A program made the position numbers and the translations under genes. From contig NC_014376.1 in the NCBI RefSeq assembly GCF_000144625.1, forward strand, positions 868,001 through 932,000: 64,000 nucleotides of DNA, read 5' to 3'. The notes under the pieces are model-generated. The model was not told the DNA's origin, ran no database searches, and saw only the letters and a program-made list of their open reading frames with translations. The DNA is from [Clostridium] saccharolyticum WM1. Its GTDB lineage: Bacteria > Bacillota > Clostridia > Lachnospirales > Lachnospiraceae. Of the stretch, positions 48,063 through 63,909 are shown piece after piece (the first letter of the stretch is position 1; each line of letters begins with the position of its first letter).

Positions 48063-48524
48063 TCATACTAGTTTATAGATGTTAAAGGGTTCGAATAGTA
48101 TGAGATAATCGTCTTTCTGCAATCCTTTTCCGTATTTGGCCTGATAGCAGTGAATTGCTTCCTGCAAAAACTCTTCCGTCACATTCAGGTGTTCCGCAAC
48201 CTCGTACCTGTTTCTGCAGCCGGCCTCCTTTGCAGCCACCAGCCTTTCCAGAGTTATCATCTTATGGTAGGCCCATAGCCTGGCGGTGCGTTCCTGTTTC
48301 TGGTTGGATGCTTCAGACTGGTCCAGGATGTCCCCGGTGGTGGTATGATAATGCCCCAGCTCCTCCGCCAGGACACAGGCCTTCTGGCAGTCCGGCATAT
48401 CCTGGCGGATCAGAATCTGAGTCCCTCTGATCCTGCCGTCATTGGCTAACAGCGGCCGTTCCTTGATGATAATTCCCTGGGAATCCGCTTCTTCTAATAA
48501 AGATTCATAGTTCAAATAAATCAC
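48063..48524 (-). CDS. ImmA/IrrE family metallopeptidase-like protein
   Basis: A 153-residue protein with the metallopeptidase helix CVLAEELGHYHTT near residues 49-61. The usual HExxH reads EELGH, so the first His is absent, as in a number of phage-encoded ImmA relatives. ImmA-type proteins cleave the neighbouring cI-like repressor to induce a mobile element. It lies 14 bases downstream of the XRE repressor gene, in the same operon, which supports that role. Activity is not certain. Confidence 0.8.
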   Translation of the reverse strand: MIYLNYESLLEEADSQGIIIKERPLLANDGRIRGTQILIRQDMPDCQKACVLAEELGHYHTTTGDILDQSEASNQKQERTARLWAYHKMITLERLVAAKEAGCRNRYEVAEHLNVTEEFLQEAIHCYQAKYGKGLQKDDYLILFEPFNIYKLV

Positions 48525-48538
48525 CTCAATGAGTTATC

Positions 48539-49021
48539 TTATTCATCAAAAAAGGCATCATCATGCTGTTTCATTTCCTCGGTTACCTTGATGTCAGTTC
48601 TTTCATGGGCAGCAACCGGCTCTAGGTAAGCTCTGTTATTTCCATCAGAAAGTTTTACAATGCTGCTGTCTTTGCTGTATTCGGGGATATGGACCATCTC
48701 CTTTACCCGTTTTAAGGCTTCTTTTTGACCTTTTTCATTTAAACGTTGAAAGTTCTCAAGCATCTCTCCTGCATATTCTCCGAAACAGCCGCTTACGTAG
48801 CTGAAAGCGGAAGCGTTATCGCTCTCCCAGCCCATAAGATAAGCCGGGGTTGTTTTCAATGCGCTGGCGATGGCTATGATCTTTGATTGGGGAAGTCCTC
48901 TTCCGTCTACCTCGATCTTGTTTATAGAAGAACGTGATTTATAGCCTGCCTTCAAAGCCAGTTCTTCCTGGGAGATTCCCAGCTCTTCCCGCCTTCTTTT
49001 AATGATCTGTCCTATTTCCAT
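48539..49021 (-). CDS. XRE-family cI-like repressor
   Basis: A 160-residue DNA-binding protein: helix-turn-helix in residues 3-60 (IGQIIKRRREELGISQEELALKAGYKSRSSINKIE), and a C-terminal helical/acidic region without the Ser-Lys dyad of LexA-type repressors. A perfect GGAGGTGATC ribosome site precedes it. It is divergent from the Cro-like gene, with shared operators between. It likely keeps the tail operon off until removed by the ImmA-like partner. Confidence 0.88.
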   Translation of the reverse strand: MEIGQIIKRRREELGISQEELALKAGYKSRSSINKIEVDGRGLPQSKIIAIASALKTTPAYLMGWESDNASAFSYVSGCFGEYAGEMLENFQRLNEKGQKEALKRVKEMVHIPEYSKDSSIVKLSDGNNRAYLEPVAAHERTDIKVTEEMKQHDDAFFDE

Positions 49022-49142: not shown

Positions 49143-49161
49143 AGAAAAAGGGGGGAGAGGT

Positions 49162-49389: not shown

Positions 49390-49415
49390 TTGGGCAGATG
49401 GGAAAGGAAAGGTTG

Positions 49416-49496
49416 ATGAGAATGAAGGGCTTGGGAAAGGTGAGGAGTCCCACTAATGAGAGAAGAAATAAAGAATATGTTAGGAGGATGGAATGA
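49416..49496 (+). CDS. Possible 26-residue basic peptide coupled to the tail operon
   Basis: A short frame (MRMKGLGKVRSPTNERRNKE...) with AAAGGAAAGG before its ATG and an ATGA overlap with the next gene. It could serve translational coupling. No family. Confidence 0.3.
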   Translation: MRMKGLGKVRSPTNERRNKEYVRRME

Positions 49497-49996: not shown

Positions 49997-50235
49997 AAAA
50001 TAAAAGTTCTGTAATATATGTGGGTCCTTCTCTGGAACATATTGTCCGGGAAGGAAGTGTATTTCGGAATGGGTATCCTCAGAAACTGAAGGAGTTAATG
50101 AAGGAGCAACCATTTCTGGAGGAATTATTGGTGCCAGTCGATTTGCTGGCTGAAACAAAAAAAGCGATCCGGAATCCAGAGAGTAGCATGAGAATGTTGT
50201 ACCGGAAAGCAGAAAAAATCAGGAGGAAAGAATAA
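49993..50235 (+). CDS. Small protein preceding tail sheath
   Basis: An 80-residue protein (IYVGPSLEHIVREGSVFRNGYPQKLKELMKEQPFLEELLVP), charged at the C-terminus. Small genes of this size are common directly before the sheath gene in clostridial contractile tails. The role is unknown, perhaps assembly. It overlaps its upstream neighbour and ends one base before the sheath start. Confidence 0.6.
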   Translation: MKNKSSVIYVGPSLEHIVREGSVFRNGYPQKLKELMKEQPFLEELLVPVDLLAETKKAIRNPESSMRMLYRKAEKIRRKE

Positions 50236-50236
50236 T

Positions 50237-51703
50237 ATGACATACAAACATGGTATTGAAGTAATTGAAAATAAAACATCGTTTCCCAATCCGCTTTCTA
50301 CCCGATATGGGGTACAGGTTGTATTAGGAACTGCGCCTGTAAACCTGGCTGAAAATCCTTATGGGATGACTAATAAGCCTGTGAAAGCAGCAAGCTTTGA
50401 AGAGGCGGCAAAGCTTTTGGGATATAGTGAAGACTGGAACAATTTTACACTTTGTGAAAGTATGTACGCCAGCTTTAAAGTATTTCAGGTATCACCGGTT
50501 ATCTTTATCAATGTTCTGGATGCGAAAAAACACAGTAAGGATGTACAGGAGGCCAGTTATCAGGTATCCAGTCATCAGTTAACTCTTAAGAACTCAGGTA
50601 TTTTAAAAGACACAGTTAAAATCTCTGCTTTACCGGGAGGAGAGGAGAAGACACTTTCTGAAAACAAGGATTTTATTATGGATTTTAATGATACCGGATA
50701 CCTGGTTATCACGTTATTGAGTACAGGAAGTGCCTATGAGGCCAGTGAAGTAAAAGCATCTTTCAAAGTTATTGCACCAGATATGGTAAAAGAGGAAGAC
50801 TTAATCGGTTTCTACAATGTCGAAACTGGAGAAGAAACCGGTATGGAAGTATTGCGCCAGATCTATCCGAAATATGGACTCGTTCCAGGGGCTCTTTTAG
50901 CTCCGGGCTGGACGGTAAAGCCCAGCATTGGAGCGGCTCTTCAGGCAAAATGTGAAGGAATCAGCGGGATTTTCAGAACCATGTGTCTGCTTGATTTAGA
51001 TACGAAAAGGGCTAAAAAATATACGGATTGCCTTATGGTGAAAAAAGAAATGGGGTATGACGAGGAACATTCCATTGTACTGTGGCCAAAGGTTATTAAG
51101 GACGGAAAACAATACAGCTATTCAGCCATTTATGGGGCAATGATGAGCTACTATACAGTCATTAACGGTGATGTTCCGTATGTGTATCCATCCAATAAGC
51201 TGTTAAATGTGGATGGTGCCGTACTCGCTGACAGTACAGAAATACTTCTTGATCAGGTCCAGGCAGGAGAATTGAACGGCAGCGGTATTGTGACCGCCTT
51301 TCACGACAATGGTTGGAAATCATTTGGAAATAATACCGGCTGTTATCCGAACAACACGGATCCTAAGGACCGTTGGATAGGCTGCCGTAGAATGTTTGAT
51401 TTTGTGGCTAACTATTTTATTACCGTATATCGCGCAAAGCTTGATGAGGGTATGAATAAAAGGATGGTGGATGACATCATCAACAGCTTTAATATTTGGG
51501 GAAACAGCCTGATGGCATCAGGTATGTGTGCAGGACTTTACGCTGAATACCGTAAGGATGAGAATACAATAGCAGATATTCTGGCTGGGCATATGAAGGT
51601 GAGAATACATTTTGCACCTTATACACCGGCAGAATATATTCAGGCAATAGAAGAATTTGATGTAACAGCATTTGAATACGCAATGGCAGCGAAGGAGGAA
51701 TAA
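50237..51703 (+). CDS. Phage tail sheath protein
   Basis: A 488-residue sheath subunit, the contractile outer tube. The N-terminal part has the typical KHGIEVIENKTSFPNPLSTRYGVQVVLGTAPVN. The C-terminal core (GCRRMFDFVANYFITVYRAKLDEGMNKRMVDDIINSFNIWGNSL) matches sheath C-termini that build the handshake interaction. AGGAGG precedes the ATG. It defines the locus as a contractile (myovirus/R-type) tail. Confidence 0.93.
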   Translation: MTYKHGIEVIENKTSFPNPLSTRYGVQVVLGTAPVNLAENPYGMTNKPVKAASFEEAAKLLGYSEDWNNFTLCESMYASFKVFQVSPVIFINVLDAKKHSKDVQEASYQVSSHQLTLKNSGILKDTVKISALPGGEEKTLSENKDFIMDFNDTGYLVITLLSTGSAYEASEVKASFKVIAPDMVKEEDLIGFYNVETGEETGMEVLRQIYPKYGLVPGALLAPGWTVKPSIGAALQAKCEGISGIFRTMCLLDLDTKRAKKYTDCLMVKKEMGYDEEHSIVLWPKVIKDGKQYSYSAIYGAMMSYYTVINGDVPYVYPSNKLLNVDGAVLADSTEILLDQVQAGELNGSGIVTAFHDNGWKSFGNNTGCYPNNTDPKDRWIGCRRMFDFVANYFITVYRAKLDEGMNKRMVDDIINSFNIWGNSLMASGMCAGLYAEYRKDENTIADILAGHMKVRIHFAPYTPAEYIQAIEEFDVTAFEYAMAAKEE

Positions 51704-51704
51704 T

Positions 51705-52220
51705 ATGTTAAAACTTCATTTAATCAACAGATATACTGTATACAGAGGTGGGAAGGAATTAATCGGTACTGCCGAAGAAGTGAAACTCCCGGAAATTACT
51801 AATTTAACAGACAGCCTGGAAGGCGCCGGTGTAGGCGGAACCATGGCAGTGCCGGTAATCGGGCTGGTAGATGATATGGAAATGGAAATTCCGTTCATGT
51901 CACTTTGCAATGATATTTTTTCTCTCATGGACCCGACCCAGACCGCAGATATTACCTTAAATGGAGCCCTGCAGGGAATGGATGGGGGGAATGGAAGTGT
52001 GGGCTACAAGCCGGTTTCTATTACTGTACGTGGAGTTGTCAAAAAGTTTGCACCGGGATCCATGAAATCCGGAGCTAAGATGGGCTCCAGTGTGACCCTC
52101 GGACTCAGCTACTATAAGATTGTACTGGATGGAAAGACAGTGCTTGAAATTGATAAGTTAAACGGCGTTTATGTGGTCAATGGAAATGATGTCCTCAGTC
52201 AAGTAAGGGACATGTGTTAA
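51705..52220 (+). CDS. Phage major tail tube protein
   Basis: A 171-residue tube subunit (FII-like of P2). Seen: LINRYTVYRGGKELIGTAEEVKLPEITNLTDSLEGAGVGGTM at the start, MEMEIPFMSL, and the C-terminal LGLSYYKIVLDGKTVLEIDKLNGVYVVNG, the P2 tube pattern. AAGGAGG precedes ATG 51705. It follows sheath as in all such operons. Confidence 0.92.
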   Translation: MLKLHLINRYTVYRGGKELIGTAEEVKLPEITNLTDSLEGAGVGGTMAVPVIGLVDDMEMEIPFMSLCNDIFSLMDPTQTADITLNGALQGMDGGNGSVGYKPVSITVRGVVKKFAPGSMKSGAKMGSSVTLGLSYYKIVLDGKTVLEIDKLNGVYVVNGNDVLSQVRDMC

Positions 52221-52232
52221 GGAGAAGGTAAA

Positions 52233-52577
52233 ATGGAAAAAGAGAAAAAAGTGATGGAATCAGTAGAAACAGATATTAAACAGGAATGGCTGAAGATTAA
52301 ATTGAAAACTCCGGTAGAGTATCAGGGAATCCAGGTGGAAAGTCTTGATATGTCCGGTATGGAAACCCTGACTGGTCGGGATCTAAATGCTATTTATGAT
52401 CTTTATGCCAATATGGGGGGAAGCGGGATTATTATGCAGGAGGCAACCCTTTTGTTTGCCCAGCTGATTGCCTCTAAGGTAACCGGATTTCCTCTGGAAC
52501 TGTTCTATGCCATGAAGGCAGGAGATTCCGTGAAACTTAAAAACCGGGTATACCGTTTTTTCTTCCTCGAGGGATAG
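52233..52577 (+). CDS. Tail assembly chaperone, short form (gpE/XkdN-like)
   Basis: A 114-residue protein between tube and tape measure, the place of tail assembly chaperones. Its start is charged; the core is LKTPVEYQGIQVESLDMSGMETLTGRDLNAIYDLYA, a pattern seen in P2 gpE-like chaperones. AAGGAGAAGG precedes the ATG. Near the 3' end the in-frame heptamer T-TTT-TTC (52556-52562) should direct part of the ribosomes into the -1 frame, adding the extension at 52562-52747. Confidence 0.85.
   Translation: MEKEKKVMESVETDIKQEWLKIKLKTPVEYQGIQVESLDMSGMETLTGRDLNAIYDLYANMGGSGIIMQEATLLFAQLIASKVTGFPLELFYAMKAGDSVKLKNRVYRFFFLEG
52556..52562 (+). promoter_or_regulatory. -1 programmed frameshift slippery site
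   Basis: The heptamer T-TTT-TTC lies in the zero frame as ..CGT TTT TTC. Both codons can re-pair in the -1 frame as TTT TTT. The zero-frame stop TAG is 13 bases downstream, and the -1 frame is open for 61 codons. This is the usual design for tail chaperone genes. Confidence 0.75.
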
Positions 52578-52747
52578 GCTGCGCAGAGGATATCCGGAAG
52601 GTGAACAAGGCATTTATATTTGCGGGCCGGTATACCAAAGCCGGCCCGGAATTCTACTTTTCCCTTCCCTTAGGACAAGCAGCCAGGCTGATCAGGGATG
52701 TAGCGGAAACAGCCAGGGAAGAAAACAGGGAAAGAAAGACGAGGTGA
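52562..52747 (+). CDS. Tail assembly chaperone, -1 frame extension (gpE'-like)
   Basis: This open frame has no start codon or ribosome site of its own. After slippage it reads LPRGIGCAEDIRKVNKAFIF and continues with AGPEFYFSLPLGQAARLIRDVAETA, ending at TGA 52745-52747, six bases before the tape-measure start. The fused product would have about 171 residues. Composition is protein-like, and it fills the gap exactly. Extended chaperone forms bind the tape measure in other phages. Confidence 0.7.
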   Translation, partial: LPRGIGCAEDIRKVNKAFIFAGRYTKAGPEFYFSLPLGQAARLIRDVAETAREENRERKTR

Positions 52748-52753
52748 TAAAAT

Positions 52754-53050
52754 ATGTCAAATAGTAATGGCATGGATAAAGGGATTAAAGTCCTTAGTCA
52801 GGCTTCGGATAAGTTTTTTAAAACAGCAGCAAAAGGCGGAAAATTGGCAGTTGATAAAACTACTGATTTTATAGAAGACTCAGTCTCAGCCGGTATGGAA
52901 TTAGAATCTAAGATGAATTCAATCCAGACAATAACAATGTCTTCTTCCTATGGAATGGAGCGCCTCTATTCACTGGCCAGAAAAGTGGGAGAAACCACGG
53001 GTTTTTCCGCCGAAGCGGCAGGCCAGGAGTTGGAGCGCATGGCAAAGGCT
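52754..53050 (+). CDS. Tape measure protein, exon 1 (N-terminal 99 residues)
   Basis: N-terminal part of the tail length-determining protein. It reads SVSAGMELESKMNSIQTITM and continues to TGFSAEAAGQELERMAKA, a canonical start of the TP901-type tape measure core domain. Here the frame meets TGA directly after GCT (53048-53050). Homologs continue AGW, which resumes exactly at 53371, so the break is an intron and not a stop. AGGTGATAA precedes the ATG. The spliced protein would have 1037 residues. Confidence 0.85.
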
Positions 53051-53370
53051 TGACATCGGGCCGGCTGTATAGAAATATACAGCGCATACCGGGGAAAATC
53101 GGTGAAAGCTAAAACTGTTAAAGGTGAAAACAATGACAGTCATGCCAATACCGAGAGAGCTGCGAATCAGGCAGTTTTTGTAACGCATAGGAGTTGAGCG
53201 CTAAGGAGAGCAAAAATACTCCCAAGAGTCTCCGGCACGATTGCCTATAGGGCATTCTGAGATAGTATACCGCTATCAAACCTAACGTACAACGAGGGTG
53301 AAGATATATGCTGAACTTGCAGGAAACTGCAAGAAGTAAGGGATAAAAAACCTTTACGGTAACAGGAATG
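53051..53370 (+). ncRNA. Group I self-splicing intron in the tape measure gene
   Basis: 320 nt, no ORF. The last exon base is U and the last intron base is G, as group I requires. P1: exon 53047-53052 GGCUUG pairs with 53057-53062 CGGGCC, with the U-G at the splice site. P2: 8 bp at 53064-53071/53076-53083 with GAAA loop. P3: 53089-53094 CCGGGG with 53230-53235 CUCCGG. P4: 53099-53103 UCGGU with 53150-53154 ACCGA. P5: 53108-53118/53136-53145. P6: 53156-53163/53171-53178. P7: 53185-53189 GCAUA with 53307-53311 UAUGC, preceded by the conserved AAGAUA. P9: 53316-53322/53327-53333 with GAAA loop. P10: 53054-53057 with 53372-53375. The hairpins between P7 and P3 suggest subgroup IA. P8 is not resolved. 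Confidence 0.87.
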
Positions 53371-56187
53371 GGATGGAAAACAGAGGACATGTTAAAAGGC
53401 CTGCCTGGAGTTATGAACCTGGCTGCGGCCTTTGGAGAAGATTTAGAAAGTGTTTCCGTAATTGTAACAAGTACTATGGATTCCTTTGGTATTCAGGCAG
53501 GAGAGTCTGCACGCTTGGTTGATGTTCTGGCACAGGCCTCTATAAGCTCTAACACTAGTTTGGATATGATGGGAAAAACGTTCCATGGAGCTGCTCCTGC
53601 CGCCGCCGCGTTTGGCTACAGTATGGAAGATGTAGCGATAGCCGCCGGGCTTATGGCCAATGCCGGTATTCAGGGGGAGGCGGCCGGCGAATCTATAAAA
53701 ACGATTTTAACCAATCTGTCGGAGCCAACAAAATCCATGGAGCAATATATGCAAAAGTTTTCTGTATCATTAAAGGACAGCGCAGGTGAAATAAAGCCTC
53801 TCGGTGAATTATTGGAGAAATTACGGTCCGGCTTTTCGGGACTATCCGAGGCGCAAAAGGAAGAGTATGCAGAAGGGATTGCAGGAAAAGATGGTATGGC
53901 AGGTTTGCTTGCCATCATGAATGGATCAGATGAGGAGTTTTTAAGACTGAAAGAAGCCATAGACCATAGTACCGGAGCCGCTGAAAGGTTATCAGCTATC
54001 CGAATGGATAATTTGGCAGGGGATCTCTCTCTTTTTAAAGGGGCTTATGACAATATTAAACTTCAAGTATACAGTGGCATTTCAGAAGAACTTAGGGAAA
54101 TTGTACAGGAAGCTACAAAATGGATCTCAGGTTTTGCAGAAAGCCTTGAAGAAGGCATTCCCACCGCCCTCAGGATTATAAAACAGTTTGCTAATGGGCT
54201 AAGAGAGTCTTTTGGATCAGTTCTGGATACAGGTAAATGGTTCAAGAACCATTCGGAGGAGGTAAAAGGCGGTATAACCGGAATTGTAACTGCTTTGGCA
54301 ATCTTTAAAGTAGCTAATGCTGGTATTGGCTTAGCAGGCGGAATGTCAGGCGCTATTAATGCATGGCCTGTAGCTTTAGCTGGGATTGTGATAGGTGGAA
54401 TTGCTGGAATTGGAGCTGCTATAAAAGAGGCAAATGACCAAGTTATTAAAAGTAATTTAAAAGAACATTTTGGCGATTTAACGCTGTCGGTCAAGGAACT
54501 TAATGAAGCGGCAAAAAATACACTGGGGGCAGGACTATTTCAAACAATTGATCAATTCAAAGGTGCAGGTGCTAAATCAAAAGAAATATATCAATCTATG
54601 AAGCGCGATTTTCATGAAATTGCCAAGACAAAATGGAAATTGTCTGTAGGAGTTGAATTCGATGAGGAAGATACTGAGACTTATGAGATTGCTATTAAGA
54701 ATTATTTACAAGGTGCCCAGGATTATGTAGACAGTAAAGGGTATGAACTTAGTCTTGCAATAGATTTAGTATTTGGAAGCAGCAAAGAGGGAGAACAATT
54801 AAAAGATAGCAGCGGAACCTTTTATCAATCTATGAAAAAGGACCTGTATCAGAAGAGAAATGAAATAAATGAGCTTTTGGATAAGAAAGCGAATGATGGG
54901 CTATCAAAAGAGGAAGAGGAAGGGTTACAAGTAAAGCAGGATGAAGCCCTGAAATTAGTGGAATTAATTACACAGTCTGAGAATCAAGCCAATTTTGAAA
55001 TGCTCCAGTGGCAGATAACTGATCCGGATCTATCCGATGATTCCTACCAGAACTATCAGCAGGCAATTTTAGATTATAATAGCAAAGCAATGGAGAATAT
55101 TGACGATGCTTACTATTCAATAATTACTTCATTATTCGTTCAAAGGAAAGCCGGAGAAAATGGTTTAAAAAATGGAATAGATGAAGAACAGTACAATGAG
55201 CTGATGAAGAATACTAAGCAGTCTTATTATCGGCAAAAGCTTCAGGTGACAATGAATGGTTATTCCGCAATGAAAGGTGTTATTACAGAGAAATATGGAC
55301 CGGAAATAGAGCCTGTGTTAGCAGAGGTTCAAAATCGTATATCTGAAGAAATTGGAGCAATGGTTGATAAAGGTAATATTTATACCCCTGAAGCATGGCA
55401 GGAGGCATTTAATAAAGTATTAATCGAAGCAACAGAGACCACGGACCCGTTGGATTCTACTAAAGGGGCCGTATACACGCTTCTTAAAAATTTGTTAGAG
55501 CCAGAACAGACAATGGGGAAGATAATTGAACTTTACAAAAATTCTGGAGGAAATGTTTATGACAAAGATATTTTAGCTGCAGAGCAGTCAATGGACAATA
55601 CAAAGGCATGGAGAGCAGTGAGTGGTTCTGATATCGAAATGTGGAAACTTATCGGAGATAAAGTTGGTGAAGATACCGCACTATCCACTGTAGTAATGTC
55701 TACCAGGGAATCCGGCGCTATATACTTGGATGAATTTATTAGTGCTATTCGAGAAAAATTACCACAAGTAGAATTAGTTGCTAAAGACTTAAATGTTGAT
55801 TTAAGAAAATATGGAGAAGATAGTGATGGAATACCAATTCCAGTGAATTATGAAACAGCAAAAAAGTTCACAGAAACAAATACTGTAGATGGCATACCTA
55901 AGCAGACCCCAGAAAGCATCCTTTGGAAGAATTTTGAATATTTAAAAAATATTTATCAGGCAAACAATTATAGCAATTTATATAATTCAATGATTTCTTC
56001 AGGATCACCAGTTATTAACGAAGATAATACTTCTTTTGCGCCAGTGTTTAGTCCAACCATTTACATGAATGGTAACCCAACACCTTCTGGACAAATACCT
56101 GAAGTAGTACGTACGACTTATGAACAATTTAAGGCTTATTTGGAGCGATATAATCATGAACAGTTTAGAGTAGCATTTATGAGGTAA
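53371..56187 (+). CDS. Tape measure protein, exon 2 (C-terminal 938 residues)
   Basis: Continues exon 1 as GWKTEDMLKGLPGVMNLAAAFGEDL. The TP901 core follows (LAQASISSNTSLDMMG, FGYSMEDVAIAAGLMANAGIQGEAAGESIKTILTNLSEPTKSM, LSGLSEAQ-type motif and MDNLAGDLSLFKGAYDNIKLQ), then a short hydrophobic stretch (about 54290-54420) and a long charged, helical, more AT-rich tail. An ATG at 53368 would give 939 residues, but it is part of the intron end and has no ribosome site. The tape measure fills the tube lumen and sets tail length. Confidence 0.88.
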   Translation, partial: GWKTEDMLKGLPGVMNLAAAFGEDLESVSVIVTSTMDSFGIQAGESARLVDVLAQASISSNTSLDMMGKTFHGAAPAAAAFGYSMEDVAIAAGLMANAGIQGEAAGESIKTILTNLSEPTKSMEQYMQKFSVSLKDSAGEIKPLGELLEKLRSGFSGLSEAQKEEYAEGIAGKDGMAGLLAIMNGSDEEFLRLKEAIDHSTGAAERLSAIRMDNLAGDLSLFKGAYDNIKLQVYSGISEELREIVQEATKWISGFAESLEEGIPTALRIIKQFANGLRESFGSVLDTGKWFKNHSEEVKGGITGIVTALAIFKVANAGIGLAGGMSGAINAWPVALAGIVIGGIAGIGAAIKEANDQVIKSNLKEHFGDLTLSVKELNEAAKNTLGAGLFQTIDQFKGAGAKSKEIYQSMKRDFHEIAKTKWKLSVGVEFDEEDTETYEIAIKNYLQGAQDYVDSKGYELSLAIDLVFGSSKEGEQLKDSSGTFYQSMKKDLYQKRNEINELLDKKANDGLSKEEEEGLQVKQDEALKLVELITQSENQANFEMLQWQITDPDLSDDSYQNYQQAILDYNSKAMENIDDAYYSIITSLFVQRKAGENGLKNGIDEEQYNELMKNTKQSYYRQKLQVTMNGYSAMKGVITEKYGPEIEPVLAEVQNRISEEIGAMVDKGNIYTPEAWQEAFNKVLIEATETTDPLDSTKGAVYTLLKNLLEPEQTMGKIIELYKNSGGNVYDKDILAAEQSMDNTKAWRAVSGSDIEMWKLIGDKVGEDTALSTVVMSTRESGAIYLDEFISAIREKLPQVELVAKDLNVDLRKYGEDSDGIPIPVNYETAKKFTETNTVDGIPKQTPESILWKNFEYLKNIYQANNYSNLYNSMISSGSPVINEDNTSFAPVFSPTIYMNGNPTPSGQIPEVVRTTYEQFKAYLERYNHEQFRVAFMR

Positions 56188-56188
56188 T

Positions 56189-56389
56189 ATGGGGAATTAT
56201 AAAACAGTTCAAGGCGATACCTGGGACATGATTGCAAAAAAAGCGTATGGAGCTGAGAAATACCTTGATCATTTAATGAGAAACAATTTTGGTTTGCTGG
56301 ATTATTTTGTATTTCCGGCAGGGATTCTGGTAAACACCCCGAGCTTGCCAAACAGGGAGATCATCGGTTTGCCGGAATGGAGAAAATGA
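56189..56389 (+). CDS. Tail protein X-like LysM protein
   Basis: A 66-residue protein that is one LysM-type domain (YKTVQGDTWDMIAKKAYGAEKYLDHLMRNN...FPAGILVNTPSLP), matching P2 gpX. It sits between tape measure and gpD-like genes as in P2-type tails, and is thought to form part of the baseplate hub. It starts one base after the tape-measure stop; its own ribosome site lies inside that gene (GAGGTAATATGG). Confidence 0.85.
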   Translation: MGNYKTVQGDTWDMIAKKAYGAEKYLDHLMRNNFGLLDYFVFPAGILVNTPSLPNREIIGLPEWRK

Positions 56390-56425
56390 AAGCAGTGATA
56401 TATGGTATGAAAGGAGGGAAAGTCT

Positions 56426-57658
56426 ACGAGCAATCCAAGAAAGAAATATTTAAATGTTGTATACAATGGAGTGGAGGTATGGAAAGATTTATCTGCGTAC
56501 ATAGAGAGTTTTTCATATGAAGATTCCGTTGACGAATCGGATAATATATCCATTTCATTAAGTGACCGTGATTTAAAATGGAGCCGTACCTGGCTGCCTG
56601 AAAAAGGGGACAAGATTTCCCCTTCCATCATTCTTGAAAACTGGAACTATGAGGGAGAAAAAATGACTGTGATGTGTGGTGCTTTCCTGGTAGATGATTT
56701 CTCCTTTTCCTGCCCTCCGTTTTCCTGTTCCATCAATGGGGTCTCAGCACCGGTGGATACCGGTTTTAAAGAAACAGAAAATACAAAAACTTGGGAAGCT
56801 GCTACTGTAAGGCTGATTGCCTCTGAAATTGCAGGAAAATATGGTTTGGAGCTGGTTTACGAATCAGAGGATATCCAGGTAGCAAAAACCGAGCAGGACA
56901 ATCAGCCGGACAGTGACTTTTTAAAAAGTATTTGCGAAAGGTATGGATTAGGGATGAAAATCTTTTTCAACCGACTGGTAATATGGGACTTAAAACAATA
57001 TTTTGATAAGCCTACGGTTATGACAATCGTACCTGAAATGGTTTCAAAATGGTCTTATAACAGCACTATGCAGGGAACCTACACCGGAGTAAAGGTAAGT
57101 TATACGAATCCCAGCAACAGTCAAACCGTTGAAGTCATGGTAGGAACAGAAGAACGGCTCTATAAAACAAGCCAAAAGGCAGACAATGAGGTGGATGCCA
57201 GACGAATCGGAGATAGTATTTTAAGGAATGCGAATAGAAAAGAGAAAACTATGAAGCTGACGATTCCGCCCAAAATGTCTTTGTATGCAACTGCCAATGT
57301 TCTACTGTCAGGTTTTGGAAATCTGGATGGAAAATATTTTGTAGAGAGGATTTCTCACAGTCTGTCAGATCGAACTTATGATATGCAGGTCAGCTTAAGC
57401 TTTATTTCTAAAGACAATGATCAGAGGGGAAATGCAGAGAAGACAGACGGCAGCAGCAAAGAAGTAAATAATTATACGGTACAAAAAGGTGACAGTTTAT
57501 GGAGTCTTGCAAAACGTTTTTATGGGGATGGAGCCAGATGCCGGGAGATTTACGAGGCAAATCAGAAAGTCATTGAGGCGGAAGCAAAAAGACGCGGAAA
57601 GAGGGACTCCAATAATGGGTATTGGATTTATCCGGAATTGATTCTTTTAATACCATGA
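56426..57658 (+). CDS. gpD-like baseplate hub protein with C-terminal LysM; apparent ACG start
   Basis: From the first ATG (56471) it has 395 residues, but the frame is protein-like upstream: SNPRKKYLNVVYNGVEVWKDLSAYIESFSY. A perfect AAAGGAGGG lies 7 bases before ACG at 56426, where ATG would be expected; in-frame TGA is at 56408. So ACG seems to be the start (410 residues). The ATG at 56471 has GGAGG only one base before it. The body matches phage late control gpD/hub proteins (TGFKETENTKTWEAATVRLIASEIAGKYGLEL, EQDNQPDSDFLKSICERYGLG). A LysM domain (VQKGDSLWSLAKRFYGDGARCREIYEANQ) is at the end. Confidence 0.85.
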   Translation, partial: TSNPRKKYLNVVYNGVEVWKDLSAYIESFSYEDSVDESDNISISLSDRDLKWSRTWLPEKGDKISPSIILENWNYEGEKMTVMCGAFLVDDFSFSCPPFSCSINGVSAPVDTGFKETENTKTWEAATVRLIASEIAGKYGLELVYESEDIQVAKTEQDNQPDSDFLKSICERYGLGMKIFFNRLVIWDLKQYFDKPTVMTIVPEMVSKWSYNSTMQGTYTGVKVSYTNPSNSQTVEVMVGTEERLYKTSQKADNEVDARRIGDSILRNANRKEKTMKLTIPPKMSLYATANVLLSGFGNLDGKYFVERISHSLSDRTYDMQVSLSFISKDNDQRGNAEKTDGSSKEVNNYTVQKGDSLWSLAKRFYGDGARCREIYEANQKVIEAEAKRRGKRDSNNGYWIYPELILLIP

Positions 57659-57671
57659 GAGGAGGAAAAGT

Positions 57672-58085
57672 ATGAAGGATGTGATTCGGGTTGGACGGAT
57701 ATCATCGATAAATCCTGAAACCGGTTCGGTAAGAGTATATTATCCGGATAAGGACAGCACAACCTCTGAATTGCCATTGTTTCATTTTCACCGGGAATTC
57801 AAGCTTCCTAAAGTGAACGATCAGGTGATTGTGCTTCATTTATCTAATGATACCAGTTCAGGAGTGGTATTGGGGGGATTCTGGCACGAAATCGATCAAC
57901 CGCCAAAACAGGCGGAATACAGAAAGGATCTGGAAGACGGCTCCTACGAAATGCTTCAGAATGGGAATTTTTTAATCCATTCCCCGCAGATTAGTTTAAG
58001 AGGTGAAGCAGGGACAGTTACGTTATCAGAGATTTTAGAAATGAAAAGCAGGCTGGAGACACTGGAAAGGAGGCTGGAAGAATGA
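57672..58085 (+). CDS. Baseplate assembly protein V-like (spike)
   Basis: A 137-residue protein with the gpV N-terminal OB-type fold (RVGRISSINPETGSVRVYYPDKDSTTSELPL...LPKVNDQVIVLHLSNDTSSGVVLGGFW) and a short C-terminal coiled coil. gpV-like proteins form the membrane-piercing tip of contractile tails. The usual beta-helix is short here. AGGAGG precedes the ATG. It overlaps the next gene by 4 bases. Confidence 0.85.
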   Translation: MKDVIRVGRISSINPETGSVRVYYPDKDSTTSELPLFHFHREFKLPKVNDQVIVLHLSNDTSSGVVLGGFWHEIDQPPKQAEYRKDLEDGSYEMLQNGNFLIHSPQISLRGEAGTVTLSEILEMKSRLETLERRLEE

Positions 58086-58471
58086 TTGGACTTTTAGGTG
58101 GACTGCGATTCCGGGTAAATGACAGTCGGGTTTTCACATTTCAGAATTTTAGAAGAGAGATTTCAGCTTCATGGAATACGATGAATCGGATCGGCCAGAA
58201 ACCGCTGTGCGAATTAGGAGGGGCAGATTTACAGACAGTAACCTTTGACATAACTCTGGATGCCTCTCTGGGAGTAAAACCCAGGGCGCTTTTAGGAATC
58301 ATGGAGCGAATGACGGAGTCAGGAGAAGCCAATGAACTGGTTATTGGAAGGCAGTTAGTAGGGAAAAACAAATGGGTAATAACGAAATGTTCTCAGGCCT
58401 GGGAAGTTATATTAAGAGGCGGAGAATTATATCGTGCCAATGTTACCCTGACGTTACAGGAATATGTGTGA
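58082..58471 (+). CDS. Phage tail protein U-like (gpU)
   Basis: A 129-residue protein matching the gpU family (GGLRFRVNDSRVFTFQNFRREISASWNTMNRIGQKPLCELGGADLQTVTFDITLDASLGVKPRALLGIM). gpU has been linked with tail termination or the proximal tail. In this operon it lies among baseplate genes, as in related prophages. ATGA overlap with the gpV-like gene. Confidence 0.82.
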   Translation: MIGLLGGLRFRVNDSRVFTFQNFRREISASWNTMNRIGQKPLCELGGADLQTVTFDITLDASLGVKPRALLGIMERMTESGEANELVIGRQLVGKNKWVITKCSQAWEVILRGGELYRANVTLTLQEYV

Positions 58472-58481
58472 GGTGGCGGCA

Positions 58482-58781
58482 ATGGAAAGATATGAAGTGT
58501 CCATCTCGGACGTATGTGGAGAGCAGGCAGAGGAACTAAAACGTAACCTGACCACTCTGTTTGGAACAAGGGCCGGCGCTCAACCTGCCGACAGAGAGTT
58601 TGGTATTTCTTGGGAATGTCTGGATGAAATGCCGGAAGCAGCAGAAAGCCTGTTTTTTCTGGAAGCTGCAAAAAAGGTGGAGCGGTATGAGCCAAGAGTA
58701 AGGATCCATGACATCGTGTTTGAGCAGAAAGAGGGAATGTTGGTCCCTCACATATATTTTAAAGGAAAGGAGGAACCTTGA
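58482..58781 (+). CDS. Baseplate wedge protein gpW/gp25-like
   Basis: A 99-residue protein of the gp25 (lysozyme-like) wedge family: LKRNLTTLFGTRAGAQPADREFGISWECLDEMPEAAESLFFLEAAKKVERYEPRVRI carries the typical T..GT..G.RP..REFG pattern and the RYEPRV motif. ATG 58482 follows GAGGTGGCGG; a longer start at 58464 is less likely. It overlaps the gpJ-like start by one base. Confidence 0.87.
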   Translation: MERYEVSISDVCGEQAEELKRNLTTLFGTRAGAQPADREFGISWECLDEMPEAAESLFFLEAAKKVERYEPRVRIHDIVFEQKEGMLVPHIYFKGKEEP

Positions 58782-59929
58782 TGAAAAACATGAACAACAG
58801 GTTTTCCGATTATCCGGAGGTCAGTTTTATTGAAGATACCAGTTTTTCAGACCTTCAGGCACGGCTTATAGAAGATTATGAGAAAAAGTATAAGGAATTG
58901 ACCGGAAAAAATATTTCACTGTCATTGGCAGATCCGTACCGCCTGATTTTATATTCCTGCGCAGTTGCAATTTACCAGGGATACCAATATGAGGACAGAG
59001 CGGGAAAAATGGGATTGCTAAAATACAGTACCGGCGAATTTCTGGACAATCTGGCGGCCTTTAAGAAGGTAAAAAGGAATGAGGCATCTCCTGCCCGCAC
59101 CATGATACGTTTTACTCTGTCGGCTGCAGTTGAAAGAAAGGTTGTAATTCCAAAGGGAACCAGGGTAAAAGGCCCGGAGCTGTATTTTGAGACATCGGAT
59201 ATAGGGGAAATAATGCCGGGCCAGCTTTATGCAGATATTCCGGCAAAGTGCCAGATTACCGGAATAAAAGGAAATGGTTATTTGCCTGGTGAGATTAGAA
59301 CGCTCACTGACTTGCTTCCCTACACTCTTAAGGTATCTAACCTGACTCAGACCAGCGGAGGCGCAGACCGGGAAAGTGATGAGGAGTTGGCGGAACGGAT
59401 TTATCTGGCGCCAATCAGCTATTCAACGGCTGGACCGGAGCGTGCTTATGAGTACTGGGTAAAGACATTCAGCCCTTCGGTAGGGGAATGCCGGATTACT
59501 TCAGAAGCTCCTGGTGAAGTAGATATTTACGTAACTATGGCGGATGGGACGATTCCTGATGACGGTTTCCTTAAAGAGCTGGAAGAATATTTGGAAAATA
59601 GCAACGTACGGCCTTTAACAGACCATGTTGTTGTGAAAAAACCCAGGCCAATAGAATATAATATTGATTTTGTTTATTATATCCGCAATGAGGACAGTGA
59701 TAAGGAAGAAACCATAAAGTACGCAGTACAGACAGCCTGTGATAATTACATAGCATGGCAGAAGAAGGTAGGCAGAGATATTAATCCTTCAAAACTGATT
59801 TATCTGGTAATGGAAGCTGGAGTAAAGATGGTAGAAGTACAAACGCCGGTATTTACGGAAACACCTGATTCTGCGATGGCGTTTCCCGGAAAGATTGCCT
59901 TGAATTACGGAGGAAGAAAGGATGATTGA
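58781..59929 (+). CDS. Baseplate protein J-like
   Basis: A 382-residue wedge protein: TIRFTLSA-type beta region after residue 100 (ERKVVIPKGTRVKGPELYFETSD), the conserved GGADRESDEELAERIYLAPISYSTAGPERAYEYWVKTFSPSVGECRI near 195-240, and a C-terminal domain. This is the gpJ/Mu gp47 pattern. AAAGGAGG precedes the ATG at 58781. It overlaps the gpI-like gene by 8 bases. Confidence 0.9.
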   Translation: MKNMNNRFSDYPEVSFIEDTSFSDLQARLIEDYEKKYKELTGKNISLSLADPYRLILYSCAVAIYQGYQYEDRAGKMGLLKYSTGEFLDNLAAFKKVKRNEASPARTMIRFTLSAAVERKVVIPKGTRVKGPELYFETSDIGEIMPGQLYADIPAKCQITGIKGNGYLPGEIRTLTDLLPYTLKVSNLTQTSGGADRESDEELAERIYLAPISYSTAGPERAYEYWVKTFSPSVGECRITSEAPGEVDIYVTMADGTIPDDGFLKELEEYLENSNVRPLTDHVVVKKPRPIEYNIDFVYYIRNEDSDKEETIKYAVQTACDNYIAWQKKVGRDINPSKLIYLVMEAGVKMVEVQTPVFTETPDSAMAFPGKIALNYGGRKDD

Positions 59930-60857
59930 TTTTTATAAAGGTGAAATGAAAGATATTATGCCGGTTAATCTGATTTCTCCGGAAACAAAAGCAATCAGCT
60001 TTGCAATAGGTCAGGCGATGAAAAAGCTGCAGGAGTTTTCCAGAGCGTGTTATATATATGGAGAATTAGGTAAGGTGCCGGAGCCGGTGCTTGATCTCCT
60101 CGCATTGGAGCTGAATACCCAATATTATGATCAGACCATGCCGAGAAATTTGAAGGAGCAGTTGATCACACAGACAACCGCCTGGTATATGCATGCAGGT
60201 ACACCGGGAGTTCTGGAGGAATTTTTAGATACAGCGCTGGATGGCGGAGAAATACGAGAATGGTTTCAATATGAGGGAAAACCTTACTATTTTAAAGTGC
60301 TGGTACAGGTGGGGGAACATGAAATCCCGTTAGGTTATGGATTGGAAGTTAAAAGGCAAATAGAACTTTATAAAAATGCCCGATCCTGGCTGGAGCATGT
60401 GGCGTTTGTAATAAAATCCAAGGCTGATTGTAAGATTGATCTTGAAAATGCGGTTCGTTTTAGAGGGAAGTTTTATCCTCGCCTCAATACTCCTTATTTA
60501 AAGCTGGATGGTTTTTGGAAGCTTGATGGTAAAAGATTAAGTGGATATGACAGTGATGAAAAGATAGATTTTTATCCGGTAAAGCAAAATTGGGAAATAA
60601 GAATTTCAGAGAATATTCTTTTGAAAGAACAGTGTCATGTGATTTATTCGGTACCAGAAAATATGGACACAGAAGAAAGAATGAGGTTTTCTGGCCGGAC
60701 AGCATCGATGGCTGGGACAAAGAATGCAATGTTTTTTAAAGCTAAAGTTGGTGAGTATGTGAGGCCAAGTGTGAGAGTTACAACTATCAACCGATTATCC
60801 TCGGGATGGAAATTAAATGGTAACAGAGCTTTAAATGGTGGCCTGTCAATACTTTAA
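59922..60857 (+). CDS. Tail protein I-like
   Basis: A 311-residue protein whose first 180 residues match the P2 gpI family (FYKGEMKDIMPVNLISPETKAISFAIGQAMKKLQEFSRACYIYGELGKVPEPVLDLLALELNTQYYDQTMP). The C-terminal part (KLDGFWKLDGKRLSGYDSDEKIDFYPVKQ ... WKLNGNRALNGG) has repeats of the W-L-DG/NG type seen in fibre-attached regions. It links baseplate and fibres. Overlaps gpJ-like by 8 bases. Confidence 0.85.
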   Translation: MIDFYKGEMKDIMPVNLISPETKAISFAIGQAMKKLQEFSRACYIYGELGKVPEPVLDLLALELNTQYYDQTMPRNLKEQLITQTTAWYMHAGTPGVLEEFLDTALDGGEIREWFQYEGKPYYFKVLVQVGEHEIPLGYGLEVKRQIELYKNARSWLEHVAFVIKSKADCKIDLENAVRFRGKFYPRLNTPYLKLDGFWKLDGKRLSGYDSDEKIDFYPVKQNWEIRISENILLKEQCHVIYSVPENMDTEERMRFSGRTASMAGTKNAMFFKAKVGEYVRPSVRVTTINRLSSGWKLNGNRALNGGLSIL

Positions 60858-60903
60858 TCAATACTTGAAATAAAAATAATGAATGATGAAAGGAAGAAAG
60901 AAT

Positions 60904-61299
60904 ATGGCAGAAAGTTCAAACGGTGTAATGACTGTAATAGCCAGAAAAAAATTATGTGAGGCACATGCCGGAGACCGGCAGTTGCCGAAGATTAAAAAAA
61001 TAGCCTGGGGTGACGGAGGGGTAAATGAAGCGGGAACTCCTAAGAACACGACGGGAAATGAAATTGGACTTTATAATGAGCTGATGAAAAAGGATGTGGA
61101 AGCTTATGTGTATGTAAGTGAAGACCATACCAGTTGCCGATATACAGCTACTTTGGAAGCAGGAGATCTGACTGGTAAGGAAATATCAGAAATGGGACTC
61201 TTTGATGATGATGGAGATTTGGTGGCTTACCGGACATTTTTGCGTAAGGGCAAAGATGAAGATATTCCTCAGATTTATGATATGGATGAAGTATTTTAA
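60904..61299 (+). CDS. Tail-collar fibre N-terminal-like protein (DUF3751 type)
   Basis: A 131-residue protein resembling the N-terminal attachment domain of gpH-type fibres: GVMTVIARKKLCEAHAGDRQLPKIKKIAWGDGGVNEAG, then LTGKEISEMGLFDDDGDLVAYRTF, the EIGLFD.DG pattern. In larger phages this domain is fused to a long fibre; here it is a separate short gene. ATG 60904 follows AAAGGAAGAAAG. About 46 bases lie between it and the gpI-like gene. Confidence 0.75.
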   Translation: MAESSNGVMTVIARKKLCEAHAGDRQLPKIKKIAWGDGGVNEAGTPKNTTGNEIGLYNELMKKDVEAYVYVSEDHTSCRYTATLEAGDLTGKEISEMGLFDDDGDLVAYRTFLRKGKDEDIPQIYDMDEVF

Positions 61300-61317
61300 C
61301 AAAAGGAGGTATATGGA

Positions 61318-61752
61318 ATGGAATTTTGTAAAATAAAAAATCCACCGGAATATACACTGGAGGTGGAGCATTGGACCAGAGATACGGATGCAGACGGTGA
61401 TCAGATGGCAGTAGTAATTGAACAGTTATTGAATAATACATTTTACAACAAGACGCTGGAGGAAAGTCGTCAGCTGCCGGTTTTGGTTAATCTCCCTGCT
61501 TCCGGATGGAGCAGTGAAGCTCCATATTGTCAAAAGGTCGTGGTGACTGGAGTTCAGGCAACTGATAACCCAACCGTTCATCCCTGTACTCCAAAGGAAT
61601 TAGGTCCTACAGAAGTGAAATTAAAAAGGAAACTGATTAGTATGATTACAGACGGCGAATCAGGAGATGGCTATGTAATATTTTATTGCGGAGAAAAAAA
61701 GCCAACAGAAGATTTTAGTGTGTATTTGAGAGGGGTGAGTGTCAATGGGTAA
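61318..61752 (+). CDS. Tail-fibre-associated hypothetical protein
   Basis: A 144-residue protein (FCKIKNPPEYTLEVEHWTRDTDADGDQMAVVIEQLLNNTFYNK ... TEVKLKRKLISMITDGESGDGYVIFYCGEKKPTEDFSVYLRGV). The final part looks like a beta-rich attachment domain. Context suggests a fibre connector or baseplate accessory; the family is not recognised. AAAGGAGG precedes the ATG. It overlaps the fibre gene by 8 bases. Confidence 0.6.
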   Translation: MEFCKIKNPPEYTLEVEHWTRDTDADGDQMAVVIEQLLNNTFYNKTLEESRQLPVLVNLPASGWSSEAPYCQKVVVTGVQATDNPTVHPCTPKELGPTEVKLKRKLISMITDGESGDGYVIFYCGEKKPTEDFSVYLRGVSVNG

Positions 61753-62806
61753 AGTGATTATTGCCGGGGGTAGTGGATCAGGAGCAGGGTCTGACGAATG
61801 CACGGCCACAAAAGCTGAGGTATTAAAGGGATATAGTGTAATTTCAGCTGATTCCGATGATGAAGTGGTAGAGGGTTCATTGGAACTTACTGGTGACGCA
61901 TCAGATAGTCAGGTACTGGAAGGAAAAACATATTATAACACTAATCCAAAGATTAAGAGAAATGGTTCCATGGTAAACCATGGCGCTGTATCCCTGAGTT
62001 TGAATGCTGGTACATCCTATACAGTGCCTGCCGGTTTTCACAATGGGGGAGGTAAGGTGGTTGCTAACAGTTTGGTAAGCCAGACCAGCGCAACGGCTAC
62101 ATCTGCAAAGATATTAAGTGGGCAGACAGCTTGGGCGAATGGAAGTAAAGTTACAGGGACCATACCCATTCAAGGAGCGGATGTATCCGGCACTGATCGG
62201 GCTTGGGCTACCAACATGAGTAATTGGGCAGGTACCGTTAATTTAGGAGTCAGGAATGGACATTACTTAAATGGTGTCAATTGGATTCAGGCGAATATTC
62301 CAGAATATCAGCCATGGAATATTAAAAAGGGTGTGAATATAGGGGGTATAGTAGGTACCTTTGAGGGTTATGTACCAACAGCAAATGACCTTTATATAAG
62401 AGGGAATAATATATCAGGATTTACTTCAACCGACAAAAATAAATTCTCTTTTGAAACTGGGCAGATTAATTATTCGGGCGTAGTGAATGGATCTTGGGGG
62501 AGTTATGCTTCAATGTCAGTAGATAATATTAATTTAACTGGGAAATCCTATCTTAATATTCAATTTTCTTTAACTAAAACAGATGATTCTGGGGAGAATT
62601 TTAATTTAGCAATAGTTAAGCCTGGAACCACTCTGTATAATAGTCAGCTTGGTCTCGTTTCACATCCAACCAACACGTATGTAGTAGATAAAGTACTGAG
62701 TATCCCTTTGTCACAAATACAAATGGTTGTAAAGATTGGGGTATACTTTTACACTAAGTCAGGTACATCCTTTAATGGAACTATTCAGAGAATTTGGTTA
62801 AATTAA
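61745..62806 (+). CDS. Tail fibre protein (receptor-binding candidate)
   Basis: A 353-residue, Gly/Ser/Thr-rich protein. Residues 1-60 hold the motif KAEVLKGYSVISADSDDEVVEGSL, and repeats of the type SGQTAWANGSKVTGTIP occur near 125-140, typical for clostridial tail fibres; the C-terminal 130 residues look like a beta-sandwich. ATG 61745 preferred (GAGAGGGGTGAG before it); GTG 61739 possible. This would be the specificity determinant of the particle. A 135-base gap follows with no gene. Confidence 0.78.
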   Translation: MGKVIIAGGSGSGAGSDECTATKAEVLKGYSVISADSDDEVVEGSLELTGDASDSQVLEGKTYYNTNPKIKRNGSMVNHGAVSLSLNAGTSYTVPAGFHNGGGKVVANSLVSQTSATATSAKILSGQTAWANGSKVTGTIPIQGADVSGTDRAWATNMSNWAGTVNLGVRNGHYLNGVNWIQANIPEYQPWNIKKGVNIGGIVGTFEGYVPTANDLYIRGNNISGFTSTDKNKFSFETGQINYSGVVNGSWGSYASMSVDNINLTGKSYLNIQFSLTKTDDSGENFNLAIVKPGTTLYNSQLGLVSHPTNTYVVDKVLSIPLSQIQMVVKIGVYFYTKSGTSFNGTIQRIWLN

Positions 62807-62941
62807 TTTCTACACTGACGCAGTTAAATGCAGTTAAATATCCTTTATAAATATACTAAATTTCTTTAAAGGCAATTTGGCAGAAATTAAAGTAATTGAT
62901 TAATTGATGAAACGCTATCTATTTTAATGAAAGGAGACTAT

Positions 62942-63346
62942 ATGAAGATATATGTAAATGAACAATATGAAATAATCGCATTAGATGTAGAGCCAGAAAA
63001 CTACTCACATTTATTTGAGGTTGAAAGAACGAGAATAGAGATGTTTGGAGACCTTTGTGATTCCTGTATTCAAGGGTATAAATACGAACCTCAATACGAA
63101 ATGCTGTTTAATATGGATGGAACCAATGCCAGAAACGAAAAAACCGGAGAATTGCTATATAAATTAGATGAGTCTGGTCATAAAAATTTTATTGGTTATG
63201 CATGTTATCCCTTTATAGATTATAAAATGCTTACGTTAATACAAAAACAATATGAGGAATCTTCAAAACAGTTACTTGTGCTGAGTGCACGAATGGCGTA
63301 TCTGTCCATGATGGCCGGTATTGAAATGGAGGCAGGTCATGAGTAA
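62942..63346 (+). CDS. Hypothetical protein before XkdX
   Basis: A 134-residue protein (IYVNEQYEIIALDVEPENYSHLFEVERTRIEMFGDLCDSCIQGYKYEPQYEMLFNMDG), ending in a helix (LSARMAYLSMMAGIEMEAGHE). Proteins of this layout lie before XkdX in Firmicutes prophages and tailocins. Their role is unknown. AAAGGAGACT precedes ATG 62942. It overlaps the XkdX gene by 8 bases. Confidence 0.6.
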   Translation: MKIYVNEQYEIIALDVEPENYSHLFEVERTRIEMFGDLCDSCIQGYKYEPQYEMLFNMDGTNARNEKTGELLYKLDESGHKNFIGYACYPFIDYKMLTLIQKQYEESSKQLLVLSARMAYLSMMAGIEMEAGHE

Positions 63347-63479
63347 AAAGTTTGAACAGGTAAAGAGATATTACGATGTAGGTCTTTGGTCAGAGGGAAT
63401 GGTTTGGAACGCCGTCGGACGCTGGATCAATGCATATGAGTTTCAGGAGATCGTCGGAAAAGAATATAGAAAGAGTTAG
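63339..63479 (+). CDS. XkdX family protein
   Basis: A 46-residue protein reading MSKKFEQVKRYYDVGLWSEG and then MVWNAVGRWINAYEFQEIVG. This is the XkdX pattern (phi..VK.YY..GLW....V..AV....IT..EY.EI.G), a marker of Firmicutes phage tail loci just before the lysis genes. GGAGGCAGGTC precedes the ATG, and it overlaps the previous gene. Confidence 0.85.
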   Translation: MSKKFEQVKRYYDVGLWSEGMVWNAVGRWINAYEFQEIVGKEYRKS

Positions 63480-63489
63480 GATAGTGAGA

Positions 63490-63909
63490 ATGAAAAATAT
63501 ATTATGTACATCAGCGGGGGTAGCAGGTAGTTTTATAGTATCATTATTTGGGGGGTGGGATAACGGGATAGGAACTTTAATGCTTTTTATGGCCATTGAT
63601 TTTCTTTCAGGCCTAGCAGTAGCCGGAATATTCCATAAAAGCGCAAAGACAGAATCTGGAACACTGGAGTCCAAAGCCGGCTTTAAAGGTTTATGCAGGA
63701 AGTGTATGGCACTCCTGTTCGTACTGGTGGCCCACCGCCTAGACCTATCCCTAGGCACCCCATACATACGCGACACAGTCATCATCGGCTTTATGGCAAA
63801 CGAGCTAATATCCATAGTAGAAAATGCAGGCCTCATGGGCCTGCCTCTCCCAACAGCCCTAATTAATGCCATAGATATTTTAAACAAAAAATCACAAACA
63901 TTACAATAA
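63490..63909 (+). CDS. Phage holin (TcdE/holin-4 type)
   Basis: A 139-residue protein with about three hydrophobic segments (GSFIVSLFGG; TLMLFMAIDFLSGLAVAGIF near 35-55; VIIGFMANELISIVENAGLMGLPLP near 95-120) and the FL.G...G signature of the TcdE/holin-4 family. It would permeabilise the membrane to release particles together with an endolysin that should lie just beyond the window. Codon use changes after about 63730, with many C-ending and CTA codons. The longer frame from 63430 lies in xkdX. Confidence 0.83.
   Translation: MKNILCTSAGVAGSFIVSLFGGWDNGIGTLMLFMAIDFLSGLAVAGIFHKSAKTESGTLESKAGFKGLCRKCMALLFVLVAHRLDLSLGTPYIRDTVIIGFMANELISIVENAGLMGLPLPTALINAIDILNKKSQTLQ

Follow-up and report, generated by a model that had tools for sequence, protein, structure and literature searches.

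How could the ruler protein of an antibacterial particle be made from a gene whose reading frame, left unspliced, terminates after 99 residues? This question is raised by a tape measure gene in the 64,000-nucleotide stretch of the [Clostridium] saccharolyticum WM1 chromosome analysed here (hereafter the window, whose positions are used unless genome positions are stated).

The interrupted gene lies in a chromosomal tailocin

The gene belongs to a 17-kb contractile tailocin locus with regulators, sheath, tube, chaperone, tape measure, baseplate, a fibre region, a holin and an amidase. Apart from the tape measure gene itself, the locus comprises:

48063..49021, minus strand: tailocin regulators, Peptidase_M78 and HTH_3 (Pfam)
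50237..52577, plus strand: tail sheath (PHROG only), tail tube (Pfam tube; head closure in PHROG) and tail assembly chaperone
56189..60857, plus strand: Phage_tail_X, LysM/tail protein, Phage_base_V, P2 GpU, gp25, Baseplate_J and Tail_P2_I
60883..63909, plus strand: fibre-region genes (some without any family) and holin
genome 932142-932972, beyond the window end: amidase

The features by which a tailocin is recognised (sheath, tube, tape measure, baseplate, lysis genes and a regulator) are all present, and no capsid, portal, terminase or integrase was recognised among the ORFs scanned (48063-63909); further downstream, up to genome position 945000, the amidase was scanned and the remainder judged from the ORF list. 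Two labels run contrary to this picture: the ORF at 49493 matches a head-and-packaging PHROG (1.2e-13), and the tube matches the PHROG called head closure. ORFs 61318, 62927 and 49162 matched no family. As judged from its genes, the locus is a chromosomal contractile (R-type-like) tailocin, and this gene content bears out the first-pass annotation, which had placed the interrupted gene in a chromosomal tailocin. In the relatives L181 and L182, 19 of the 21 tail-locus query proteins were matched, the exceptions being 62927 and the holin. The upstream neighbours of the locus encode a ComEC-like competence protein and DNA polymerase III delta (holA), and the downstream neighbours, as seen in L208, are S20 (rpsT), a germination protease and SpoIIP. 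A small DUF6774 ORF (47826-48050, minus strand), also present in several other Lacrimispora loci, lies between holA and the tailocin regulators.

Position and boundaries of the insertion

The tape measure frame runs through ATG GCA AAG GCT (53039-53050) into an in-frame TGA (53051-53053) and picks up again at GGA TGG AAA from position 53371. The first-pass annotation had proposed exactly this, a 320-nt insert following GCT, without an ORF of its own, in a tape measure gene; both the reading frame and the intronless homologues described below agree with it. The gene is laid out as follows:

52754..53050, plus strand: tape measure exon 1, 99 aa, ending ...MAKA, with U at the 5' splice site
53051..53370, plus strand: group I intron, 320 nt, without its own ORF, in-frame UGA first and G last
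53371..56187, plus strand: tape measure exon 2, beginning GWKTEDML, with PF10145 (positions 29-201) and PHROG tape measure families

Exon 1 by itself matched no Pfam family. With exon 2 as the query, 160 tape measure loci were gathered (the best 80 of 171 from genome contigs and the best 80 of 462 from viral contigs). The codon is uninterrupted in 146 of them, which read ...MAMA-GWKTEDM (with one MAMS and one MSMA), and the other 14, including the window's own record (L089) and duplicates, are interrupted directly before GW. These 14 are the loci at least 62% identical to the window; the next best, at 49%, are intronless. When the protein was joined from 53050 to 53371, its junction aligned free of gaps in all 23 intronless loci tested, drawn from the 146, and the boundaries therefore rest on homology, beyond the motif alone.

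All eight distinct introns (315-320 nt) share these boundaries: exon 1 ends in GCT with its final U paired to a guide G, the first intron codon is an in-frame TGA or TAA, and the terminal G is followed by GGATGGAAA, the 3' boundary reading G-GGATGG in 8/8. A ninth intron (L270), found later, occupies the same site and scores 346.8 bits with the intron model R1 described below. Since all eight inserts open with an in-frame stop, none is a coding version of the insert, and a reading as coding sequence or intein is ruled out.

Group I identity and fold

In a permissive search, RF00028 matched positions 53042-53333 of the plus strand (37.1 bits, E 5.9e-8, model positions 1-253); this match to the covariance model named in the first-pass annotation spans the whole model but stays below the gathering cut-off of 50. 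At gathering scores, Rfam finds nothing in the window but one tRNA, far from the intron. Across the whole genome, RF00028 gave two matches at E<=10, the second of which (16.8 bits, E 0.16) was set aside as chance, and in a control search it matched in 8 of 14 control genomes, above the cut-off in two. The minimum free energy of the intron has a z-score of -5.3, with none of 100 shuffles as good. A group II intron was rejected, no such family appearing among the Rfam matches up to E 10. The assignment to group I is supported by the RF00028 E-value together with the helices and pair counts given here. Every element named in the initial reading of the sequence (P1 with its U.G pair, P2 and P9 with GAAA loops, P3, P4 UCGGU/ACCGA, P5, P6, P7 GCAUA/UAUGC and AAGAUA) was recovered, all on the plus strand:

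53047..53062: P1, exon GGCU/U (slash at the splice site) with guide GGGCC (53058-53062), U53050.G53059 at the splice site
53064..53083: P2 hairpin with GAAA loop, two pairs changed on both sides
53089..53235: P3 (53089-53095/53229-53235), enclosing P4, P5, P5a and P6
53099-53103/53150-53154: P4
53107-53109/53144-53146: P5, outer pair A-C in the window
53114-53120/53134-53140: P5a
53156-53163/53171-53178: P6
53185..53311: P7, GCAUA 53185-53189 with UAUGC 53307-53311, unchanged in 8/8
53190..53222: P7.1-like stem GGAGU/ACUCC, between P7 5' and P3 3'
53236..53299: P8 region, three hairpins, any of which could be P8 proper
53301..53306: J8/7, AAGAUA
53316..53357: P9 (GAAA loop) and P9.1, one both-side-changed pair each

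Standard pairs fill 98.8% of the 720 pair cells in the alignment of the eight distinct introns, and 35-44% when the helices are slid; eight pairs change on both sides (in P2, P5, P5a, P9 and P9.1), compared with 0-2 for slid helices. Among 500 shuffles the paired percentage was never reached, and eight both-side-changed pairs occurred in six. The number of pair types, which 371 of the 500 shuffles matched or exceeded, is for that reason no support for the fold. The sequences behind these counts are closely related and not independent: seven of the eight changed pairs represent one difference, that between the window plus its nearest relative L090 and the other six, and the remaining one (in P5) lies within the six. 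P3, P4, P6 and P7 pair in all eight, J8/7 is of the AAGAUA type, and the outer pair of P5 fails in two. No pair changes on both sides in P3, P4, P6, P7 or the P8 hairpins; covariation speaks neither for nor against P4, P7 and the hairpin at columns 247-266, in which nothing varies. Two elements were discarded: a first-drafted P8a helix, whose strands failed to pair and for which the alignment consensus was substituted, and a conserved P10, the pairing of 53054-53057 with 53372-53375 being found in the window and L090 and missing in all other relatives. The GGAGU/ACUCC stem between P7 5' and P3 3' pairs in 8/8, with one side varying once. One or more extra stems at this place are a hallmark of subgroup IA, to which the intron probably belongs.

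The intron is conserved beyond neutral sites

In six distant relatives the intron is 83-84% identical to that of the window, and its unpaired positions (the paired/unpaired split being taken from the first structure draft) are 80-81% identical. The fourfold-degenerate sites of the same relatives are 32-41% identical in exon 2 (100-110 sites) and 37-47% in exon 1 (27-30 sites). In the nearest relative, L090, the intron is 94% identical, and the fourfold sites 52% in exon 2 and 75% in exon 1 (32 sites). Both exons display ordinary protein constraint across codon positions; in exon 2 of the six relatives, for example, second positions are 86-89% identical to the window and third positions 43-47%. 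Both exons and the intron are maintained, as would be expected if the exons get joined. Since its conservation far exceeds that of neutral exon sites, the intron is, on this comparison, a maintained functional RNA and not a decaying relic. The first-pass annotation had offered, as one of two readings, a fixed relic whose splicing the particle requires: the necessity of splicing stands as the better of the two alternatives, and the relic does not, given that the intron exceeds neutral exon sites in conservation.

J8/7 reads AAGATG in L009, L010, L011 and L013, where the window has ATA. This variant places an ATG behind GAGGGTG, in frame with exon 2, from which a tape measure protein lacking its N-terminal part might be translated on unspliced RNA.

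Tail modules across Lacrimispora

We located holA in 24 of 25 Lacrimispora genomes and inspected the locus in all 25, over at most 20 kb per genome. Regulators occur in 23; they are absent in G014, and the G015 contig starts inside the module. Tail module A, that of the window, was found in six genomes (G000, G003, G015, G017, G018 and G019). In 16 others the tail genes form module B, which is not homologous to A and has a sheath and a tape measure gene of its own (names from PHROG for G004; partial match in G005 and G023). The remaining three possess no recognised tail genes in the fetched locus: G008 and G020 retain regulator, holin and amidase, and G014 the amidase alone. A tape measure gene of the window's type is thus confined to six of the 25 genomes, with the intron at the same codon in 6/6. 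The intron model matched all six module A loci and none of the 19 others, where another kind of intron could escape it; Rfam at its cut-off gave no match in six of these 19. The 16 module B loci being among those unmatched, the tailocins there appear to do without this intron. The genomes closest to G000 by holA (97% and 93%) carry module B, which suggests that module A, intron included, may have been transferred between lineages.

The tail-module loci compared were L179, L181, L182, L208-L213 and L348-L363. Taken as a whole, shared regulators and lysis genes with exchangeable tail modules A and B at one holA-downstream locus amount to cassette exchange of a killing particle.

Related introns in phage tape measure genes

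With stricter filters, the intron model found in 299 Lachnospiraceae genomes the window's own genome and one other, with two matches near 39 bits. A scan of viral contigs with an exact-site pattern returned eight stretches, each from a contig in which the intron had been found before, and blastn against phage records matched the 3' end of the intron alone, about one fifth of the query, among the matches listed. Model R1, built solely from the eight module A intron sequences, scored 100.8 bits in phiJH1301-1 (KX077891), a phage of S. suis, where the match lies between two ORFs both annotated as tape measure, and 87.6 bits in Staphylococcus phage PT1-1, directly following an ORF assigned to tape measure in PHROG (3e-58). 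Phages phiS10, Javan576 and others align to phiJH1301-1 in two pieces, fitting empty sites. RF00028 at E<=0.01 missed both the phiJH1301-1 intron (L169) and the upstream PT1-1 intron, and only R1 finds the two. Like the window's intron, that of phiJH1301-1 lies in a tape measure gene, but it occupies another position within the gene and is not annotated as an intron; the gene is annotated as two genes around it (L169 2311-2604). In MissB1, two differently named tail genes lie beneath the match, and in Javan355 a homing endonuclease.

A 3' signature pattern derived from P9.1 was found in at least 120 IMG/VR stretches (L214-L333), at no fewer than 123 sites; the 21 sites followed by no 3' ORF of 50 aa or more were dropped, leaving 102, and 82 remained after removal of near-duplicates, the sample including Lacrimispora-group members themselves. 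Among the matches listed, 28 of the 82 non-redundant downstream ORFs fit the tape measure family phrog_28 (E<=0.001), with coiled-coil cross-matches possible, and most of the best 25 of 175 rows of the PHROG result are tape measure families. Pfam, for the same 82 and again among the matches listed, gave 10 PhageMin_Tail, 2 TMP repeat and 1 TMP_3, along with about nine capsid and about five terminase assignments. Single-linkage BLAST clustering, among the matches listed, united 42 of the 102 ORFs in one tape measure cluster with eight start-position groups, four of them single; 29 of the 42 listed members share the start position before TMWEDQG. As the pattern was drawn from this intron and the sites are the matches listed, the tape measure share is valid for this subfamily sample only. 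At E<=1e-8, R1 matched 117 of the 120 pattern loci among those listed (none in L265, L306 and L331), some only at the 3' end, the matches being counted per locus and not by overlap with the pattern site. By these assignments, tape measure genes are the largest host-gene class in the sampled subfamily, among the matches listed.

Published cases point in the same direction. Excerpts of PMC10448857 describe three introns in the tape measure gene of the Vibrio phage ICP1, supported by RNA-seq and RT-PCR, and call the gene frequently interrupted. The ICP1 introns resemble that of the window in their host gene, and their splicing has been shown; they differ in number, in the HNH-3 endonuclease genes of one or two of them and in belonging to a virulent phage, and the likeness is one of spliced introns in a tape measure gene, whatever their type. 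The first-pass annotation regarded a tape measure gene as an unusual place for such an intron, a view contradicted by ICP1, by the S. suis and Staphylococcus phages and by the 28 of 82 listed phrog_28 matches.

A recent spread of the intron through the tailocins of Lacrimispora, as a mobile element set in motion in trans by an endonuclease encoded elsewhere, is an explanation that we consider unlikely. In most pairwise comparisons among relatives the intron is indeed more alike than the exons, but a constrained RNA yields the same excess of similarity. The similarities of exon 1 and exon 2 conflict in some pairs (81% and 96% for L010/L009), which suggests recombination inside the tape measure gene; intron, exon 1 and exon 2 nevertheless all place the window with L090, apart from the rest. 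The motif around the site is very conserved, and in L325 (about 9580-10090) an intron with a small ORF of 88 codons sits about two codons from it. An intron in L299 (about 1630-2160), some 12 codons upstream in the same tape measure motif, also contains an 88-codon ORF; neither ORF has a clear Pfam domain. Against recent spread, the window's genome holds a single copy of the intron, no Pfam endonuclease was found in the tail-locus ORFs scanned, and no intronless allele of this tape measure clade was seen among the 160 loci (best 80 of 171 and best 80 of 462) and 25 genomes compared.

Proposed splicing and its consequences for the tailocin

The reading that we hold with high confidence, from the comparisons above, is that a functional ORF-less group I intron of phage origin is spliced from the tailocin tape measure transcript and is inherited with module A. 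Production of the full-length tape measure protein would require removal of the 320-nt intron. The guide sequence would pair with the terminal GGCU of exon 1, guanosine would attack after U53050, and exon 1 would in turn attack after G53370, producing ...MAKA-GWKTEDML. The stop at the first intron codon may keep ribosomes off the catalytic core: in-frame stops near the 5' splice site are common and thought to shield folding from ribosomes, according to excerpts of PMC3984707 and PMC3073962. Particle formation would depend on splicing by way of the full-length protein. The intron presumably originated in the phage pool, where tape measure genes seem to be a recurrent home; its endonuclease gene would have been lost or never present, and it would now be inherited with tail module A of the genus-wide tailocin locus. 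Its retention is likely explained by the rarity of precise loss and by a site within a highly conserved tape measure motif.

A regulatory role was also considered, in which splicing efficiency, responding to exon 1 translation, growth state, GTP or temperature, would gate tailocin assembly and be selected for that; the intron would be kept as a switch making killing conditional on the ribozyme. We regard this as quite improbable. Conservation of the whole intron beyond neutral sites would suit a switch, but is equally expected of an intron that merely must splice and is hard to lose precisely. The in-frame stop at intron codon 1 in 8/8 would couple ribosomes to folding, yet a stop of this kind is found in most group I introns (PMC3073962, in the part available). 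A study cited in reviews reportedly links T4 intron splicing with translation and growth state. The window contains no other RNA family above cut-off save the distant tRNA, and the 16 module B loci show no match to the intron model. The dependence of splicing on GTP or temperature suggested in the first-pass annotation finds no support here. If a switch did exist, it would represent a group I intron domesticated by the host within a host-beneficial particle, with tail length control made conditional.

That a dead intron has broken the gene and the tailocin is no longer made, as the 99-residue unspliced frame and the three of 25 genomes without tail genes in the fetched locus might suggest, is hardly credible and was rejected, considering the codon-position constraint in both exons, the conserved intron, the 19 of 21 proteins matched in L181 and L182, and the splice-site bases and core helices kept in 8/8.

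Comparison with known introns

The mycobacteriophages BAKA and Optimus carry a 265-nt endonuclease-free intron in a tail gene, supported by RT-PCR in BAKA, which resembles the window's in its virion tail gene, its U and G boundaries and the missing endonuclease, and differs in residing in a minor tail protein gene rather than a tape measure gene (PMC3706429, excerpts). The introns of Twort orf142 and Bastillevirinae are likewise self-splicing phage introns, but in other genes; the same source, in the passages available, asks why its introns occupy only nucleotide and DNA metabolism genes (PMC11878797). The tailocin locus of Burkholderia cenocepacia J2315 also contains an intron of a self-splicing class, which differs in being group II, 1.9 kb long and placed between two regulatory genes (excerpts of PMC5411513). 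This was the only paper retrieved in the literature searched for an intron with an R-type bacteriocin and a tape measure, and none of the papers in that literature joined a group I intron with a tailocin or Lacrimispora with a tailocin. Related introns in phage tape measure genes are already known; the tailocin setting was not found in the literature searched.

The prominence of tape measure genes as the largest host class in the sample contrasts with the apparent preference for nucleotide and DNA metabolism genes stated in the available part of a 2025 paper (PMC12350094), and may matter more than the intron itself; split tape measure annotations are worth a second look. The tailocin, an antibacterial particle inherited with the chromosome, offers a clean case in which a ribozyme should be needed to make the ruler protein, with built-in controls, namely an exact site, intronless homologues and sister tailocins at the same locus without this intron.
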